Source: Paenibacillus sp. FSL R7-0204
GTDB taxonomy: Bacteria > Bacillota > Bacilli > Paenibacillales > Paenibacillaceae
Direction: 5' to 3'
NCBI RefSeq assembly: GCF_038002225.1
Contig: NZ_JBBOCA010000001.1
Coordinates: 6,262,001 to 6,326,000, forward strand
DNA: 64,000 nucleotides
Below, one piece after another: positions 45,876 through 52,813 of the stretch. Made by a program: the position numbers and the translations under genes. The notes under the pieces were generated by a model that did not search any database, was not told where the DNA came from, and was given only the letters and a program-made list of their open reading frames with translations. The number at the start of each line of letters is the position of its first letter. Within the stretch, counting starts at the first letter, position 1.

Positions 45876-47084
45876 TCACTCCGTCCAGTTCCACAGCCGT
45901 ACTTCCCCCACCTGGAGGTGACTCACCCATGAAGCCTCACGCAGCTTCAGCAGCTCCTTGACCGGCCCGGTGACAACGGCTCCATAGAGCTTCACTCCGT
46001 TCTGCTCCAGATAGGCTACGGAGGCATCTAACTGATTGATATACACCGCTCTGCCAGCGAGTGTCTGATGCTGCTGCAGCAGCTTAAGGGTCTTGATGAA
46101 ATTGGCATCCCGCACGGCTCCGCTACCATATGCCTCAATTGAAGGCGACACGCTGCTGTAAGAGGAGGTGGAGCTGAACCAGCCTGTTTTTTCCTTGGTG
46201 ACCGCGGATTTCTTCATATCATCAGCGTGCCACATAGGCTGATAGGGGAATCCAAGCGGATATATGACCACATCATCACGAATCCCGGTTCCGGTATCGG
46301 CACCGAACCAGACAGGCTGAAGGTTCAGCGGCTCCAGTTGTTTCAGCAGCTCATCTGTGGTATATAAATGGCCGAGTGACAGATATGCCTCGGCAACCGT
46401 ACCTTCAGGAAGCTTCGCAAGCCTCTTCCACTGATTATTATCATCCCCTCCCCCGGCAGTCCCCTCCGCAGACGGATAATAGAACACTTTTCCAGACCCG
46501 TTCCGCTCATCCATCCAATTAAACTTACCAATATTGGCCAGTCCGAGATGGAGATCCTGGGTATAGCTGCCCACCTGTATGCTCTCGCCGCCCACCTGCT
46601 TCAGCAAATTCCCTGATAACTCCAGCCGGAAAAAATAATGCGCAGCCGATGACAGCCGTACCGTAGTGTTGGGACGGGTAACAGCAACCGCTGATTCTAC
46701 CACATCACGGTAAGTGTCACCACGCTCTCCGGTGCTGTAAAAGACTGCTGTAATAATGCTGCTGATGACCGTAAATAGCAGAAACATCGAAAATACAGTT
46801 AACGTGTTGCTGATCCGTGCCTTCCATTTGCCCCGGCGAATAATGGACTTCTCTCTTCGCTTCTTCTTCGCCTTCTTCAACCCTGGAGCTGCGCTTCCTT
46901 GCCCATCCGTCTTGGTCCAACTCCCGGTGGCCGGCCCGTCCTGCTCCTCCCGTTCCATCTGCTCCTCCAGATACAGCTGATACGCCTCAAGCTTCGCAAG
47001 CTCACTCTCCAGCTCCTCATGCTCTTCCTCCGGGAGCGTGCCCTCACTGTACCGGCGCAGCTTCTCTTTGAATTCCTCACTCAT
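45876..47084 (-). CDS. membrane anti-sigma factor (Sigma_reg type)
   Basis: Probable anti-sigma factor for the ECF sigma encoded just upstream. The 402-residue protein has an acidic helical cytosolic part (MSEEFKEKLRRYSEGTLPEE..., about residues 1-60), a basic stretch (KKAKKKRREKS), one membrane helix (about 95-117) and a large external domain of some 280 residues. This matches sigma-factor-regulator proteins such as YhdL. The ATG at 47084 is 7 nt after GGAGG and overlaps the sigma gene by 8 nt, so the pair is made together. What signal the external domain senses is unknown. Confidence 0.82.
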   Translation of the reverse strand: MSEEFKEKLRRYSEGTLPEEEHEELESELAKLEAYQLYLEEQMEREEQDGPATGSWTKTDGQGSAAPGLKKAKKKRREKSIIRRGKWKARISNTLTVFSMFLLFTVISSIITAVFYSTGERGDTYRDVVESAVAVTRPNTTVRLSSAAHYFFRLELSGNLLKQVGGESIQVGSYTQDLHLGLANIGKFNWMDERNGSGKVFYYPSAEGTAGGGDDNNQWKRLAKLPEGTVAEAYLSLGHLYTTDELLKQLEPLNLQPVWFGADTGTGIRDDVVIYPLGFPYQPMWHADDMKKSAVTKEKTGWFSSTSSYSSVSPSIEAYGSGAVRDANFIKTLKLLQQHQTLAGRAVYINQLDASVAYLEQNGVKLYGAVVTGPVKELLKLREASWVSHLQVGEVRLWNWTE

Positions 47085-47580
47085 GCTCATTCCTCCTCCG
47101 ATCCGCCTCACGCAGCTTCTGCCTGGCGCGGAATACGAGTATCTTGTATTGGGACAAGCCCACCCCCATAATGTCAGCGGCTTCCTTATAGCTCAGTCCG
47201 TGTACATCGTGCAGCAGCAGGGCATGACGCTGCCCCTCCGGCAACTGGCTGAGCGCCCGCGCGGCTTCCTCCCAGCGTTCCTGCTTCAGCAGAGTGCCTT
47301 CCGTCGTCTCCGGGTGGGGCAGACTGCTGAAATAAGTGCCTTCCTTTGCCTCACTCCGCTTCTCTTTGCGCGTATAATCCACGAATGCATTATATGCGAC
47401 CCGGAACAGCCACGGCTTAATCCGCTCCTCCCGGCAATCCTCCAGATACAGATACGCCCGGTAAAAGGTATCCTGCATCAAATCTTCAGCCGCATGATGG
47501 TCCTGGCAGAGGGAGCGCAGATAACGGTAGATGTCAGCAACATATTGTTCATATAGTTCATCCAGCGAATTCGGCTCCAT
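47077..47580 (-). CDS. ECF RNA polymerase sigma factor
   Basis: Extracytoplasmic-function sigma factor, 167 residues. Region 2 includes DIYRYLRSLCQDHHAAEDLM with QDTFYRAYLYLED (-10 recognition); region 4 includes LSQLPEGQRHALLLHDVHGL and SYKEAADIMGVGLSQYKILV (-35 recognition HTH). The start at 47580 is favoured over the longer frame because an ECF-type promoter (47600-47627) overlaps that extension. Coupled to its anti-sigma gene by an 8-nt overlap. The target regulon cannot be seen here beyond its own promoter. Confidence 0.9.
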   Translation of the reverse strand: MEPNSLDELYEQYVADIYRYLRSLCQDHHAAEDLMQDTFYRAYLYLEDCREERIKPWLFRVAYNAFVDYTRKEKRSEAKEGTYFSSLPHPETTEGTLLKQERWEEAARALSQLPEGQRHALLLHDVHGLSYKEAADIMGVGLSQYKILVFRARQKLREADRRRNEHE

Positions 47581-47599
47581 CTCCTCCCCCCTTACTCCA

Positions 47600-47627
47600 T
47601 CCACGTATGAGAATGCGAAAAGTTACA
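47600..47627 (-). promoter_or_regulatory. ECF-type autoregulatory promoter
   Basis: TGTAAC (47622-47627), 16-nt spacer, CGTGGA (47600-47605) on the minus strand, the AAC-N16-CGT pattern of ECF sigma promoters. The transcript would start about 12 nt before the sigma-factor ATG. Confidence 0.65.
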
Positions 47628-47965: not shown

Positions 47966-48283
47966 ATGGGAGAAAAACGACAACGGTACAACGAAGAATA
48001 TAAGAAGCAAACGGTAAAGTTCATTCAAGAGCAGACGAAGAGCATAGGGGACATCGCGCAAGAGCTGGACATTCCGAAAAGTACGCTGCACCAGTGGATG
48101 GGGAAATACCGGGAGCTAAAGAATGAACCGGTAGCCAGTATGGATCGGGTACGGGAACTCGAAGCCGAGCTCCAAGAGATGCGCCGTCAGCTCCAAGAGA
48201 AAGACAGTCGACTTGCCGATACAGAGGAAGAATTGGCAATCGTAAAAAAAGCAGTGCACATCTTCAGCAAACCAAGGAATTAA
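47966..48283 (+). CDS. IS3-family transposase OrfA
   Basis: 105-residue DNA-binding protein of the element. The N-terminal helix-turn-helix is IGDIAQELDIPKSTLHQWMG (about residues 27-46), followed by a leucine-rich coiled coil (residues 58-92) that mediates multimerisation. Near its end the run A-AAA-AAA (48244-48250) allows a -1 shift into the orfB frame, giving the OrfAB transposase. Strong ribosome site (GGAGG, further upstream than usual). Confidence 0.9.
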   Translation: MGEKRQRYNEEYKKQTVKFIQEQTKSIGDIAQELDIPKSTLHQWMGKYRELKNEPVASMDRVRELEAELQEMRRQLQEKDSRLADTEEELAIVKKAVHIFSKPRN

Positions 48284-48294
48284 GATTCCAGTTT

Positions 48295-49158
48295 ATGAAG
48301 GACCATCGCTCCGCATTTCGCTTGGAGAAGATGTGCAGTACCCTACAGGTATCCAGGAGCGGATATTACAAGTGGCTGAACGCCAAAGCCAGTGTGCAAG
48401 CCCTCCGCAAGGCTGCTGTTATGGAGCGAATCCGGTACCATTTTGACGACCATCAAAAACGGTATGGAAGTCCGAAGATCACCCGCCTGCTGCATCAGGA
48501 AGGCTATACGGTCACGGAACGCACAGTGAGTGTGTACATGCGAGAAATGAAGCTCCGCTCTATTGTATCTAAGCCATACCGAGTGCAGACGACCGATTCC
48601 AAGCATAATAATCCCATTGCACCAAACACACTGAACCAAGAGTTTAAGGTGCTTAAGCCCAATACCGTATGGGTCACCGACATCACGTATATCCCTTGTC
48701 GTGGAGGTCGCTTATACCTAGCTAGCGTCATGGATCTATGCACGCGAGAAATTGTAGGGTGGCGGCTGTATAACCATATGGAGACGAGCCTGGTCTTAGA
48801 CGCGCTGCAGGCGGCGTACACGGCGAAGCGACCCGGCGAGGGCCTACTGCACCACTCTGACCGAGGGTCTCAATATACCTCAAAAGAATATGTCGACCAA
48901 CTAAAGACATACCACATGAAATCCAGCATGAGCCGTAAAGGAAACTGTTACGATAACGCCTGCATTGAGTCTTGGCACAGTATTTTAAAGAAAGAGCTCA
49001 TCTACTGTAATCCGCGCTTCAAAAACCCGGAACAGGCATATGATGCTATTTTCCAATACATTGAGTTCTATTACAATCGCAAGCGAATGCACAGCTCACT
49101 GGGGTATCTTTCCCCCGCCCGCTTTGCTAAGCAATTCACTAAAAAATCCGTTGCGTAA
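48295..49158 (+). CDS. IS3-family transposase OrfB (DDE integrase)
   Basis: Catalytic part of the transposase; 287 residues as an independent ORF, or the C-terminal part of OrfAB after a -1 shift. It has the HTH_21 segment FDDHQKRYGSPKITRLLHQE and the rve integrase core: WVTDITYIP (first D), HHSDRGSQYTS (second D) and the final E in CYDNACIESWHSILKKEL, then K/R seven residues on. The frame is open upstream of the ATG back to the slippery site. Confidence 0.93.
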   Translation: MKDHRSAFRLEKMCSTLQVSRSGYYKWLNAKASVQALRKAAVMERIRYHFDDHQKRYGSPKITRLLHQEGYTVTERTVSVYMREMKLRSIVSKPYRVQTTDSKHNNPIAPNTLNQEFKVLKPNTVWVTDITYIPCRGGRLYLASVMDLCTREIVGWRLYNHMETSLVLDALQAAYTAKRPGEGLLHHSDRGSQYTSKEYVDQLKTYHMKSSMSRKGNCYDNACIESWHSILKKELIYCNPRFKNPEQAYDAIFQYIEFYYNRKRMHSSLGYLSPARFAKQFTKKSVA

Positions 49159-49422: not shown

Positions 49423-50709
49423 TCAATAAAAGCCGATGCTGGACGAAGCGTCCTTCATCCATTCCCGTTTGCGGCCCTTGTCCAGCTCGCCGCGCATGCC
49501 GCGCACAAGAAGCTCCACATCTGCCGTGCCGTTCTCATGCCATTCCAGTGCAGCACTGACATACAGCTCGCCGAGCTGGGTCAGGGAGAAATCCCCGGTC
49601 AGACGCGCAGCAGTGGCTGTGCCTTCCTCACCTGCAAAGGCAGAGAAGCCGCGCAGCTGCAGATATTCAAGGCGCAGCGCCTCGCTTGGCATCTTGATCT
49701 CATAGGCCCGGTCGAAGCGCCCGGCGCGGTTCATGAGACCCGGGTCGATTTTATCCGGATAATTGGTCGTGCCGATCAGGAAGATTCCCTCCTTGGAGGT
49801 GGCCCCGTCCAGCGTGTTCAGGAAGAAGGAGCGCACCTCCTGCGGCATGGAGTCGATATCCTCAATCACGAGCACCATCGGCGCCAGCCGGGCCGCAGCC
49901 TCGAATACCTCATTCACTGATTCGCTGCTCGTATACTCTGTAATCTGCCAATAGAGCACCGGTCCCGGCACGCTTCCGGCAATGGATTTGACCAGCGTGG
50001 TCTTACCGTTGCCCGGATGCCCGTAGAGCAGAATCCCCCGCTTGTACGGGATATCATAGGTTACATAGAAGCTGCGGTCGCTGTCGAAGAACTGGTCGAG
50101 CGAGCGGTAGATCTCTTTTTTGATACCGGCATCCAAAATCACCTCTTCACGCCTAACCGCACGCGTAATCGGCTCATCCTCCCGGGAAATCCCGTTGCGC
50201 CGGTCGGTGAACACTGTCACCTTGTTGATATTTTGCTCCCGCTGACGCTTGCGCACATTGCCAAGGAAGAACTGCAATTGCGCGTCCGATGCGGCAAACA
50301 CATAATCCTGAAAGTTAATCCCGTTCTCCTGAAACACCGGAACCCGTGCCAGGGCAATGCCCATCGCCGGATAAGCGAGCACATTATTTCGGACCGACAG
50401 ATGGATATGATACTCCGGCTGCTCCTTCTCATCATCGAACACGAAGGTCCGGTCCTCCAGACGGTCAAAAATCCGCGCCACATGCTCCACACCGGCATTC
50501 CCGCTCTGCACATCGTTCTCCAGCAGCTTCCAGTATTCGCTGTTGGGATCATCGCTGGCATACAGCTCATAACGGACACCGTACCGGGTGTAGAGGGCTT
50601 CAAGGATGCCGTCCACCAGACGGGCGTACACATCGTAGCCTTTGATAATTCCAGCTCTTTCTTCATCATATTCATAGATTACAGCCGGTTTCTTGTTCTC
50701 CTGCTCCAT
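49423..50709 (-). CDS. AAA-family ATPase paired with rtcB
   Basis: 428-residue protein with an unrecognised N-terminal domain (about residues 1-200) and a C-terminal AAA core: Walker [21 protein letters not shown] (about 227-246), Walker [12 protein letters not shown], sensor-1 [20 protein letters not shown] and an arginine-finger-like [13 protein letters not shown]. The core resembles BCS1/FtsH-type remodelling ATPases. It starts 2 nt after the rtcB stop, so the two form one operon. A role in remodelling an RNA-protein complex alongside RtcB, such as damaged ribosomes or tRNA, is an inference from linkage. Confidence 0.85.
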
Positions 50710-50711
50710 CC

Positions 50712-52172
50712 TTATTTTGTCCCCTTTATCGCTGCGAGCGGCTTGCACTTGGCCACCACGGCAGCCAGGCCGGCGCCCGTAACGCTTTCTATGATCTCAT
50801 CTACATTCTTATAGGCTTGGGGAGATTCGTCAATAATAGATTCCAGGGAATGCTGGTTCACAACAATCTCATCTTCCGTTCCCACCTTCATCGACCGGGA
50901 GAATTCCTGGACACTCACCAGCCGCTTGGTAGCCGAGCGGGAGCGGATACGTCCTGCACCATGGCAGATGGAATAATAATTCTCTTCCCCGCCGGGCTGG
51001 CCGACCATGATATAGGATGCCGTACCCATGGAGCCGGGAATCAGCGCCGGATGTCCGGTCTCCGCATAAGGGCGCGGATTATCCGCATGTTCCGCAGGCA
51101 GAGCGCGGGTGGCTCCTTTGCGGTGGACGAACTTGCTGCCTGAGGAAGTCTTCTCTTCCCAGGCGTAATTGTGCATCAGATCGTAAAGGGTACGCAGCTC
51201 GCACTTCGTGCCGAAGACGTCCCGGAAGCCCTCACGGACTCCATAAGCGATCAGATGACGGTTCACCACCGCATAGTTCAATGCCGAGTACATCAGATTA
51301 ACATAGCGCTGTGCCTGCGGATGCGCCAAAGGCGCATAGATCAGGCGCGGATCAGCGCTGCCCAGCCCCAGCTGGCCCATGACCTTGGCGAACGCCGGGG
51401 TGCAGAACTGATTGACCATGCCGCCCCAGGCCCGTGAGCCGGAGTGGATCATCACGGCAATCTGCCCGTCCTTCAGCCCCCAGGCTTCGGCTACTTCCCG
51501 CTGCTCCTCTGCGATCTCAATCGCCTGAATCTCCACGAAATGGTTGCCGCCGCCAAGAGTTCCGAGCTGGCGGTGGCCCCGGTGCCAGGCCAGGTCAGGC
51601 AGCTCATTCAGAATCTCTTCATCGAAGCCGAGCTTGCTGATCTCCACGTGGGATAGAGCACTTGATTTCTTCGGCGTGTAGCTGTCCGGGATATATTTGT
51701 TCGGCAGGCCGTGCAGTCCCTTGCGTACGATATTCTCCAGACGGATATCACTGTAATGGCCGCGCTGCTGGGCTTCCATCGGCAGATACTTCTCAATGGC
51801 GCGGACCAGCTTGCGGCGCAGCTTCACTTCACGCAGATCATCCATATGCAGGTTGGTTAGATGCACGCGCATCCCGCAGCCGATATCGCTGCCCACAATG
51901 GATGGCGACACATAGCCTGATTCGGCATCCCAGACGGCGGTTGTACCAATGCAGGTTCCGACGCCGACATGCACATCCGGGGTATAGCTCATATACTCGA
52001 TGCCGGGAATCTGCAGATTATTATTAGCCATCTCCAGGACCTTGTAATCCAGCGTGCCGAATAATTGCTCACTGGCGTAGATTTTGAGGTCGCCGCCCGG
52101 AAGGGCCACCTCATGTTTATAGCGGGATATCTCCTCCGCTTGGTACTTCATGCTATTCATATCTATTTTCAT
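50712..52172 (-). CDS. rtcB: RNA-splicing/repair ligase RtcB
   Basis: Mn- and GTP-dependent ligase joining RNA 2',3'-cyclic phosphate or 3'-phosphate ends to 5'-OH ends. 486 residues with the RtcB motifs: [11 protein letters not shown] (metal-binding Cys), [12 protein letters not shown] (metal His), [11 protein letters not shown], and [13 protein letters not shown] with the His that is guanylylated, plus [14 protein letters not shown]. It is longer than E. coli RtcB (408), like many Firmicute homologues. Start at 52172 after GAGAGG. Preceded by a 300-nt leader with two small ORFs and a terminator. Confidence 0.93.
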
Positions 52173-52240: not shown

Positions 52241-52277
52241 AAAAAAGAGCCGCAGACCAGTTCTGATCATGCGGCTC
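52241..52277 (-). terminator. attenuator-like terminator upstream of rtcB
   Basis: Minus-strand stem GAGCCGCA/TGCGGCTC with T-run 52241-52246, located between a promoter (52501-52528) and the rtcB start (52172). A further hairpin with GTGC/GCAC and AGCTT/AAGCT stems (52290-52315) precedes it by 12 nt. Since no gene of normal size lies upstream within the transcript, it probably attenuates rtcB transcription. Confidence 0.75.
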
Positions 52278-52319
52278 CCGGCGCGCTAAGTGCAGCTTCC
52301 CGTTGAAGCTTGCACCTGT

Positions 52320-52370
52320 TCAAAGCACACCTGTATTCAGTTCAGACATCAGCAGCAATACCCTGCGCAT
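52320..52370 (-). CDS. putative leader peptide 2 of the rtcB operon (16 codons)
   Basis: MRRVLLLMSELNTGVL. Its ATG shares one base with the stop of leader ORF 1 (TAATG), so translation would be by re-initiation. Its stop is 5 nt before the GTGC hairpin (52290-52315). A ribosome on this ORF would therefore mask that hairpin. Too short for coding statistics; supported by position only. Confidence 0.4.
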   Translation of the reverse strand: MRRVLLLMSELNTGVL

Positions 52371-52462
52371 TATGTCTTCCGGACGAAGGCGATGAGATCA
52401 GATCGTACATATGCGGTTGTCAGGTGATCCTGCTGTCTGTTCCGTTTATTTGTTCCAATCAT
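52370..52462 (-). CDS. putative leader peptide 1 of the rtcB operon (30 codons)
   Basis: Reads MIGTNKRNRQQDHLTTAYVR followed by SDLIAFVRKT; strongly basic start. Preceded by AAGGGAGG at 10 nt and located about 30 nt into the transcript from the promoter at 52501-52528. The stop codon overlaps the start of leader ORF 2. The combination of ribosome site, coupling and downstream terminator suggests ribosome-mediated attenuation rather than a functional product. Confidence 0.55.
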   Translation of the reverse strand: MIGTNKRNRQQDHLTTAYVRSDLIAFVRKT

Positions 52463-52500
52463 GACCCGTCAGCCTCCCTTCTCTAAATGATAAACCCAAT

Positions 52501-52528
52501 AATATATGGCCTTGCAGCAGATTGTCAA
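52501..52528 (-). promoter_or_regulatory. sigma-A promoter of the rtcB leader
   Basis: TTGACA (52523-52528), 16-nt spacer, TATATT (52501-52506) on the minus strand; the transcript would start near 52494, some 320 nt before rtcB. Confidence 0.75.
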
Positions 52529-52552: not shown

Positions 52553-52813
52553 TTACTTAAATTTGGACCAGTCCTGATTGCTGTTCTCCAGCAGGTGGCC
52601 GAAATCGTTTTCCAGCCGCTTCTGCTCCGCCTTCCGCTTATCCTCAGCTGCCTTTAGAACAGCCTCTTTCTTGTCACGTTCTTCTGCCTTGAGCGCATCG
52701 GACTGCGCCTTTAGCTTCTCCAGAACCTCACCGCTCAGCATATCCTTCAGGGTTGCCGGGGCATCCGCCTGCGCAGGGCGCGGGGCCGGTGTATTCTTCT
52801 TCTTTTTTGCCAT
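52553..52813 (-). CDS. DUF3886-like small charged protein (YqkE type)
   Basis: 86 residues, MAKKKKNTPAPRPAQADAPA..., then LKDMLSGEVLEKLKAQSDAL and a long charged helix ending LENDFGHLLENSNQDWSKFK. The LKDML..W-x-x-(F/Y)K layout resembles B. subtilis YqkE (function unknown). The start at 52813 follows AAAGGA. Its stop lies 25 nt before the rtcB leader promoter. Confidence 0.7.
   Translation of the reverse strand: MAKKKKNTPAPRPAQADAPATLKDMLSGEVLEKLKAQSDALKAEERDKKEAVLKAAEDKRKAEQKRLENDFGHLLENSNQDWSKFK

Follow-up and report, generated by a model that had tools for sequence, protein, structure and literature searches.

In attenuators of the E. coli trp/his type, leader segments pair in a 1:2, 2:3 and 3:4 geometry. 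The leader that we analyse here, upstream of the RNA ligase gene rtcB in Paenibacillus sp. FSL R7-0204, shares this geometry, but it has no tandem control codons and its region 1 is the Shine-Dalgarno sequence (SD) and start of its own upstream open reading frame (uORF). By its architecture the leader is likened to that of B. subtilis vmlR, in which the uORF lies within an anti-antiterminator and stalling frees the antiterminator ahead of an intrinsic terminator (Takada et al. 2022, PMC9226507). Induction of vmlR also by ribosome assembly defects is reported there, as is a NusG TTNTTT pause in the leader. A difference lies in the target, an ABCF resistance factor there and an RNA ligase operon here. 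The account of B. subtilis bmrBCD likewise describes a translated leader ORF with a predicted terminator, antiterminator and anti-antiterminator, elements that the rtcB leader shares at the level of prediction, and finds rare codons not to be decisive for the lincomycin response; there, however, the terminator lies inside bmrB and the target is a drug exporter (Reilman et al. 2014, PMC4191407).

Regulation of rtcB itself has been described in Salmonella, where the Rtc operon responds to RNA damage through RtcR and sigma-54, RtcR being the activator and binding tRNA halves as a protein (Hughes et al. 2020, PMC7790460); the control proposed here would reside in a leader RNA instead. Searches of open-licence papers found nothing on RtcB control outside RtcR/sigma-54 systems and, among the matches listed from open-licence PMC text, neither attenuation of rtcB nor such a leader in Paenibacillus. 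Ribosome-mediated transcription attenuation is thus known as a kind, and RtcB would appear to be a new target for it.

Anatomy of the rtcB leader

The window, by which we mean the whole stretch of 64,000 nucleotides that was analysed, comes from a genome of 7.7 Mb whose nearest named rtcB loci are from Paenibacillus. The leader lies on its minus strand, as does every feature given below unless stated otherwise. All of the letters described in the first-pass annotation are present: a sigma-A-type promoter, TTGACA-N16-TATATT (52501..52528), with 11 of 12 consensus matches (an alternative spacing, TTGACA-N18-TATTAT, is also present); the SD AAGGGAGG (52473..52480); the 30-codon uORF1 (52370..52462; MIGTNKRNRQQDHLTTAYVRSDLIAFVRKT), which is presumably translated; the 16-codon uORF2 (52320..52370), whose start overlaps the uORF1 stop as TAATG; a hairpin (52290..52315); and an intrinsic terminator (52241-52277) ending in T6 (52241..52246), followed by the listed rtcB start at 52172. 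The terminator stem has a predicted stability of -22.1 kcal/mol; a built-in terminator scan did not list it, probably because of a bulge in the stem. The leader carries, at the level of sequence, an ORF with an SD 5' of an intrinsic terminator that precedes the first structural gene, rtcB.

These parts can be described as four regions. Region 1 (GGAGGCCGATG; 52457..52478) comprises the SD, start codon and first codons of uORF1 and is complementary to region 2 (CATCGGCCTCTACGG; 52379..52405) at the end of uORF1, with which it would form an anti-antiterminator. Region 3, the 5' arm of the terminator (52263..52281), is the alternative partner of region 2, forming the antiterminator in the nascent fold of this leader, and otherwise forms the terminator stem with region 4, the 3' arm (52247..52260). 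That the SD of uORF1 is itself one partner in the switch was missed in the first-pass annotation. A further conserved element, CAACCGCATA (52410..52419; consensus CAAYYGMATA), lies about 30 nt 5' of the region-2 anchor. The hairpin at 52290..52315 falls within the loop of the antiterminator in the fold and is probably not essential to the switch; across leaders the stretch from uORF stop to terminator ranges from 38 to more than 200 nt. Of 56 representative leaders, 51 have a promoter-like site no more than 75 nt from the SD, as against none of 56 control segments taken 300-375 nt further upstream.

The gene upstream of the leader encodes a DUF3886 protein (ORF end at 52553). The true start of rtcB (PF01139; listed as 50712..52172) is probably the ATG at 52160 rather than that at 52172; the SD is better placed for the former, and three orthologous loci (L008, L010 and L015) have in-frame stop codons between the two positions. 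The end of rtcB is overlapped by a listed ORF (49423..50748) for a AAA ATPase whose nearest solved structure is B. subtilis YjoB (E 6e-168). Adjoining the ATPase gene, two plus-strand ORFs (47966-49158) resemble a transposase pair, which we take by its look to be of the IS3 type. Further along the minus strand (45876-47604) a SigM-family ECF sigma factor gene is followed by one for a 411-aa protein that has no NCBIfam match and is possibly the anti-sigma factor.

Conservation and alternative pairing of the leader

A protein match to rtcB of some strength occurs in 56 of 100 genus genomes and 208 of 295 family genomes; 80 of the rtcB loci were taken from GTDB genomes. Leaders were picked by a script that requires an SD and a start, an ORF 18-70 codons long with an end complementary to the SD, and a terminator. 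Its raw output of 210 picks at 223 loci became 204 of 220 Paenibacillaceae rtcB loci after removal of six picks that were found by eye to be wrong (L105, L114, L124, L129, L262 and L278) and of three loci of other families without a pick (L186-L188). True leaders of L105, L114, L124 and L129 were located separately from the wrong picks, and those of L034 and L063, both missed by the script, were read by eye. The same script gave a convincing leader at 0 of 20 rtcB loci in other Bacilli families, such picks as it made there, among them a weak one at L192 (20 codons, terminator-like hairpin of -14.8 kcal/mol), being counted as spurious. Of the 204 leaders, 25 are more than 700 nt away from rtcB on its upstream side, and the one intervening gene tested (L102) encodes RlaP, of an RNA-repair nucleotidyltransferase family. 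Since the genome collections overlap, the loci are not all independent, and the safer number is that of 57 representatives with less than 62% peptide identity to one another, one of which is the wrong pick L124.

Comparison of the sequences shows, by covariation, that regions 1 and 2 are conserved as a helix. Mean binding energies were -21.3 kcal/mol for a leader's own partners, -18.5 for partners swapped between leaders and -13.2 for shuffled ends (swap test z -8.9, 0 of 20000 permutations, n=53, omitting L015, L081, L089 and L124). In an alignment of 45 representatives (the other 12 of the 57 were excluded because their regions were long, unusual or mis-anchored), both sides had changed in 9 of 14 pairs, as many as were reached in 0 of 500 shuffles, although this test leans towards a helix because the aligned segment ends were set by the pairing itself; sliding the partner in the alignment reduces every covariation measure. 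Compensating changes can be read directly in L106, where CCGAT/ATCGG has become CCAAT/ATTGG, and in L085 (TTGGAAAT/ATTTTCCAA). Within the SD, G8, G9, G11 and G12 are invariant across the 45 aligned leaders.

The competing pairing of regions 2 and 3 appears in folds of the nascent RNA up to the terminator loop. With region 2 free, region 3 pairs with it at a mean of 0.52, as against 0.19 when region 1 is present, and the pairing is higher by more than 0.1 without region 1 in 42 of 54 leaders (L081, L089 and L124 omitted) and the reverse in none, a contrast that is partly built in, as adding region 1 can only compete. At equilibrium, with the 3' arm present, the terminator is at means of 0.91 with region 2 free, 0.96 when a ribosome occupies the stop and 0.94 when there is no translation. 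An antiterminator, for which the first-pass annotation had proposed computing alternative folds, is supported by nascent folds, whereas equilibrium folds do not switch; the full terminator dominates in all three states, which tells against the model, so that the switch must be kinetic, by co-transcriptional trapping. The swap test for 2:3 is weak among rtcB leaders (z -1.8; z -1.9 on repeating it with n=49, four more leaders without a strong terminator being excluded).

We consider it very probable, and well supported by the comparison of leaders, that the rtcB leader is a ribosome-mediated transcription attenuator that reads the progress of uORF1 translation; its core would consist of uORF1 only, with 1:2, 2:3 and 3:4 pairings. 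In the proposed mechanism the 1:2 helix acts as the anti-antiterminator and would also hide the SD of uORF1. When uORF1 is untranslated, 1:2 would form, leaving region 3 free for region 4, and transcription would terminate. When translation is free, the ribosome would reach the stop and cover region 2, so that 3:4 would again form and transcription would terminate. Should the ribosome instead stall or slow after initiation and before region 2, it would keep region 1 open and allow 2:3 to form; the terminator would then be absent, and rtcB, together with the AAA ATPase gene, would be transcribed.

In the first-pass annotation the same kind of control had been proposed, with two successive uORFs as the reading device, which implies reinitiation at the second. 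The attenuator itself is well supported, in that uORF1, its SD, the alternative helices and the terminator are conserved in Paenibacillaceae; uORF2 and its junction are not. A start at a TAATG or TGATG junction is found in 28 of 36 close orthologues, which would favour the two-uORF version, but in the other 8 the start is missing (ATA or ATC), the length where a start exists varies from 7 to 16 codons, and a start at the uORF1-stop junction occurs in just 16 of 174 other picks, which include further copies of the same clade and six wrong picks. With start, length and junction not conserved, we dismissed uORF2 as a functional component and regard a reinitiation attenuator as highly improbable.

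What is read from uORF1

The reading frame of uORF1 is open in 54 of 54 representatives (L015, L089 and L124 omitted), as against 6 and 16 of 54 for the other frames, and stops occur at 0 of 1322 codons in frame but at 88 of 1311 and 65 of 1286 in the others; as the script selected for an ORF, this is support rather than proof. The region-2 anchor falls in reading frames 0, 1 and 2 in 18, 11 and 25 of the 54, indicating that nucleotides are kept and not the residues they encode. Among 27 close 30-codon sequences, of which 22 are distinct, the nonsynonymous/synonymous ratio is 3.55 against a neutral value of 2.54, so that the synonymous bias anticipated in the first-pass annotation is absent; of what it had expected from aligned rtcB upstream regions, uORF1 and the terminator (204 of 220) were recovered, and uORF2, the junction and the bias were not. 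No purifying selection on the peptide is seen in these close sequences.

These results bear on the reading that the nascent uORF1 peptide stalls the ribosome on a ligand. Within the genus of the window a peptide pattern, TTAY..SDLIAFVRxT, looks conserved, as an arrest peptide would require, but other lineages read these nucleotides in three different frames and the substitution ratio exceeds the neutral one; a conserved peptide sequence, by which arrest peptides are recognised, is not what uORF1 displays. Region 2 in three frames and the lack of purifying selection make an arrest peptide unlikely, to the extent that we give it very little credence. From the pattern of substitutions it seems that the act of translation, and not the peptide, is read.

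The codons of uORF1 might instead report shortage of a particular tRNA, as in trp-type attenuation, for example after cuts by an anticodon nuclease, and so form a closed loop with RtcB as the enzyme of tRNA repair. In some uORFs N, Q, H, Y, D and R codons are abundant, and the leaders of a paralogous rtcB contain RDER-like runs with synonymous variation; there, in ten upstream-type leaders, the share of R, D, E, N, Q, H and Y is 0.436 in frame, compared with 0.28 and 0.32 in the other frames, and the contrast is smaller in thirteen leaders of the downstream type (0.383 against 0.31). Damaged tRNAs, moreover, are reported to induce the Salmonella rtc operon via RtcR (PMC7790460). Among the 57 representatives of rtcB orthologues (one wrong pick included), on the other hand, N, D, E, Q, H, Y and K share 0.325 of codons in frame and 0.241 and 0.324 in the other frames, codons 6-14 of uORF1 drift freely, the conserved element is found in different frames, and the uORFs of the rtcB leaders lack a run of control codons for one amino acid. 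We consider codon-specific control unlikely. From the anatomy, the precedents and the target genes we infer that uORF1 is translated, that its slow translation would raise rtcB, and that drugs or tRNA damage would provide the signal; the inducers would most likely be general translation trouble, such as ribosome-targeting drugs or a shortage of intact tRNA, and not one amino acid.

One feature that counts against the attenuator model as drawn is the CAAYYGMATA element, for which it does not account. With at most two mismatches the element occurs in 49 of 54 representatives, in frames 1, 0 and 2 in 25, 20 and 4 of them, at a median of 30 nt from the region-2 anchor (interquartile range 29-31, range 24-71), while its distance from the uORF start varies from 15 to 82 nt. 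A longer form, CAAYYGCATAT, is found with at most two mismatches in 40 of 56 leaders against about 4 in codon shuffles, the motif having been derived from the same leaders on which it was counted. No consistent pairing partner for the element was found within 50 leaders. Its conservation at the RNA level, its nearly fixed distance from region 2 and its recurrence in leaders of other Bacilli (L498 and L500) would fit an RNA element, either CAAYYGMATA or the 1:2 hairpin, that is bound by a protein or RNA such as a tRNA half, RtcB or another factor, with the ORF merely permissive. Variants of the element also match seven D-loop bases of several tRNAs. The segment in the window, though, binds the 37 tRNA species of its own genome no better than shuffled segments do (-20.0 against -19.6 kcal/mol), none of these tRNAs holds a complement of eight bases to it, an open uORF and strong SD accompany the element in the representatives (which were selected for this), and just 11 of 26 leaders of RsgA-like genes, described below, carry it with at most two mismatches. 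A bound RNA element thus strikes us as quite unlikely. If the ribosome-read leader serves the wider set of genes considered next, CAAYYGMATA would mark a pausing or stalling signal.

The leader before other genes

The first-pass annotation did not notice that the same type of leader precedes other genes. A covariance model built from rtcB leaders only (R1) matched 56 of 118 family genomes at E <=0.01, with one match in 52 and two in four. Ten places not plainly at rtcB were opened: three precede genes for an RsgA-like GTPase (assigned by the RsgA families in NCBIfam, with their positions confirmed by a further search), two a AAA ATPase and two an ORF of no assigned function, and the remainder comprise a GrpB-family gene without a clear terminator, one rtcB and one false match. 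Of the 30 RsgA-like loci most similar to the query, 26 have an R1 match upstream in the orientation of the gene (E <0.2), 25 of them with a terminator. Among 20 more distant RsgA-type loci R1 matched only 3 (L448-L450), with a partial match at L447 (E 0.5), and the 17 without a leader are counted against the attenuator model; R1 found no leader at the two RsgA-type loci of the window's own genome, where besides rtcB there was only one match, at E 3.24.

A second model, R2, matched 135 of 197 family genomes; having been built with RsgA-like leaders included, it finds these partly by construction. Twenty unassigned R2 places, when opened, gave seven RsgA-like genes, one AAA ATPase, two ABC exporters, one TatD-like nuclease, one GNAT acetyltransferase and eight false matches. 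The exporters (L480 and L488, the second named by eye) provide a link to bmrBCD; for the exporter, nuclease and acetyltransferase leaders the terminator was judged by eye, and one or two genomes have the leader before each of these genes. Coordinates place a separate leader before three more AAA ATPase genes (G103, G121 and G143), and in all a YjoB-like ATPase has its own leader in six other genomes. The R1 and R2 matches at L367, L472-L475, L482, L483, L485, L487 and L502-L507 were judged false by eye, lying within coding sequence or having no terminator. When genomes were sampled across the class, 54 of 299 matched at E 0.01, 22 of the 54 being Paenibacillaceae; ten matches from outside the family were opened, and four (L498-L501) have an SD, a complementary region and a terminator, with no clear target gene. 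Rfam 15, with the T-box among its curated leader families, gave 0 matches at gathering score over the whole window, and the best for the leader alone was at E 0.37, its 15.3 bits falling short of the gathering score of 40.

The three-way design is plainest in the RsgA-like leaders. Their region 2, CGGTCTC..CGG, is complementary to the terminator arm CCG..GAGACCG, and in L385, L390 and L393 TCTCGG stands opposite CCGAGA; energies for 2:3 were -17.3 kcal/mol for own partners, -16.4 swapped and -11.0 shuffled (z -2.4, n=25).

Placement of the leader before several other genes, including one for a ribosome-assembly-type GTPase, suggests that it probably reports troubled protein synthesis. One recurring device, an SD-sequestering uORF attenuator with a frame-independent core, could then wire a translation-stress regulon of Paenibacillaceae comprising RtcB with RlaP, the RsgA-like GTPase, the YjoB-like AAA ATPase and, in some genomes, also an exporter, a nuclease or an acetyltransferase, a proposal that we judge equally likely to be right or wrong. 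If it is right, RNA repair would be induced by the ribosome's own slowing, without a sensor protein. Coupling of rtcB to translation through the leader would make the physiological trigger of RNA repair directly testable, would predict under what condition the RsgA-like GTPase and YjoB-like ATPase genes, both poorly understood, are expressed, and defines both a candidate regulon and a candidate RNA family.

Two further observations concern rtcB loci of other kinds. Some genomes hold a paralogous second rtcB, about 58% identical, with its own, differently sequenced leader or leaders (L038-L046, L048, L142-L149, L162 and L166); nine distinct loci have tandem uORFs, the first SD being GGGAGG or AGGAGG and the next AAGGAG, with strong terminator-like hairpins, and in the uORFs R, D, E, N, Q, H and Y are abundant and RDER runs occur. 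At eight rtcB loci without the attenuator (L047, L153, L155, L157, L163, L202, L204 and L208) a common upstream motif, GTAATACTTT(T/C)(A/G)CCATGTTC, was recognised by eye, and part of it lies upstream of rtcB in L158 and L164; it is possibly the operator of a protein regulator.
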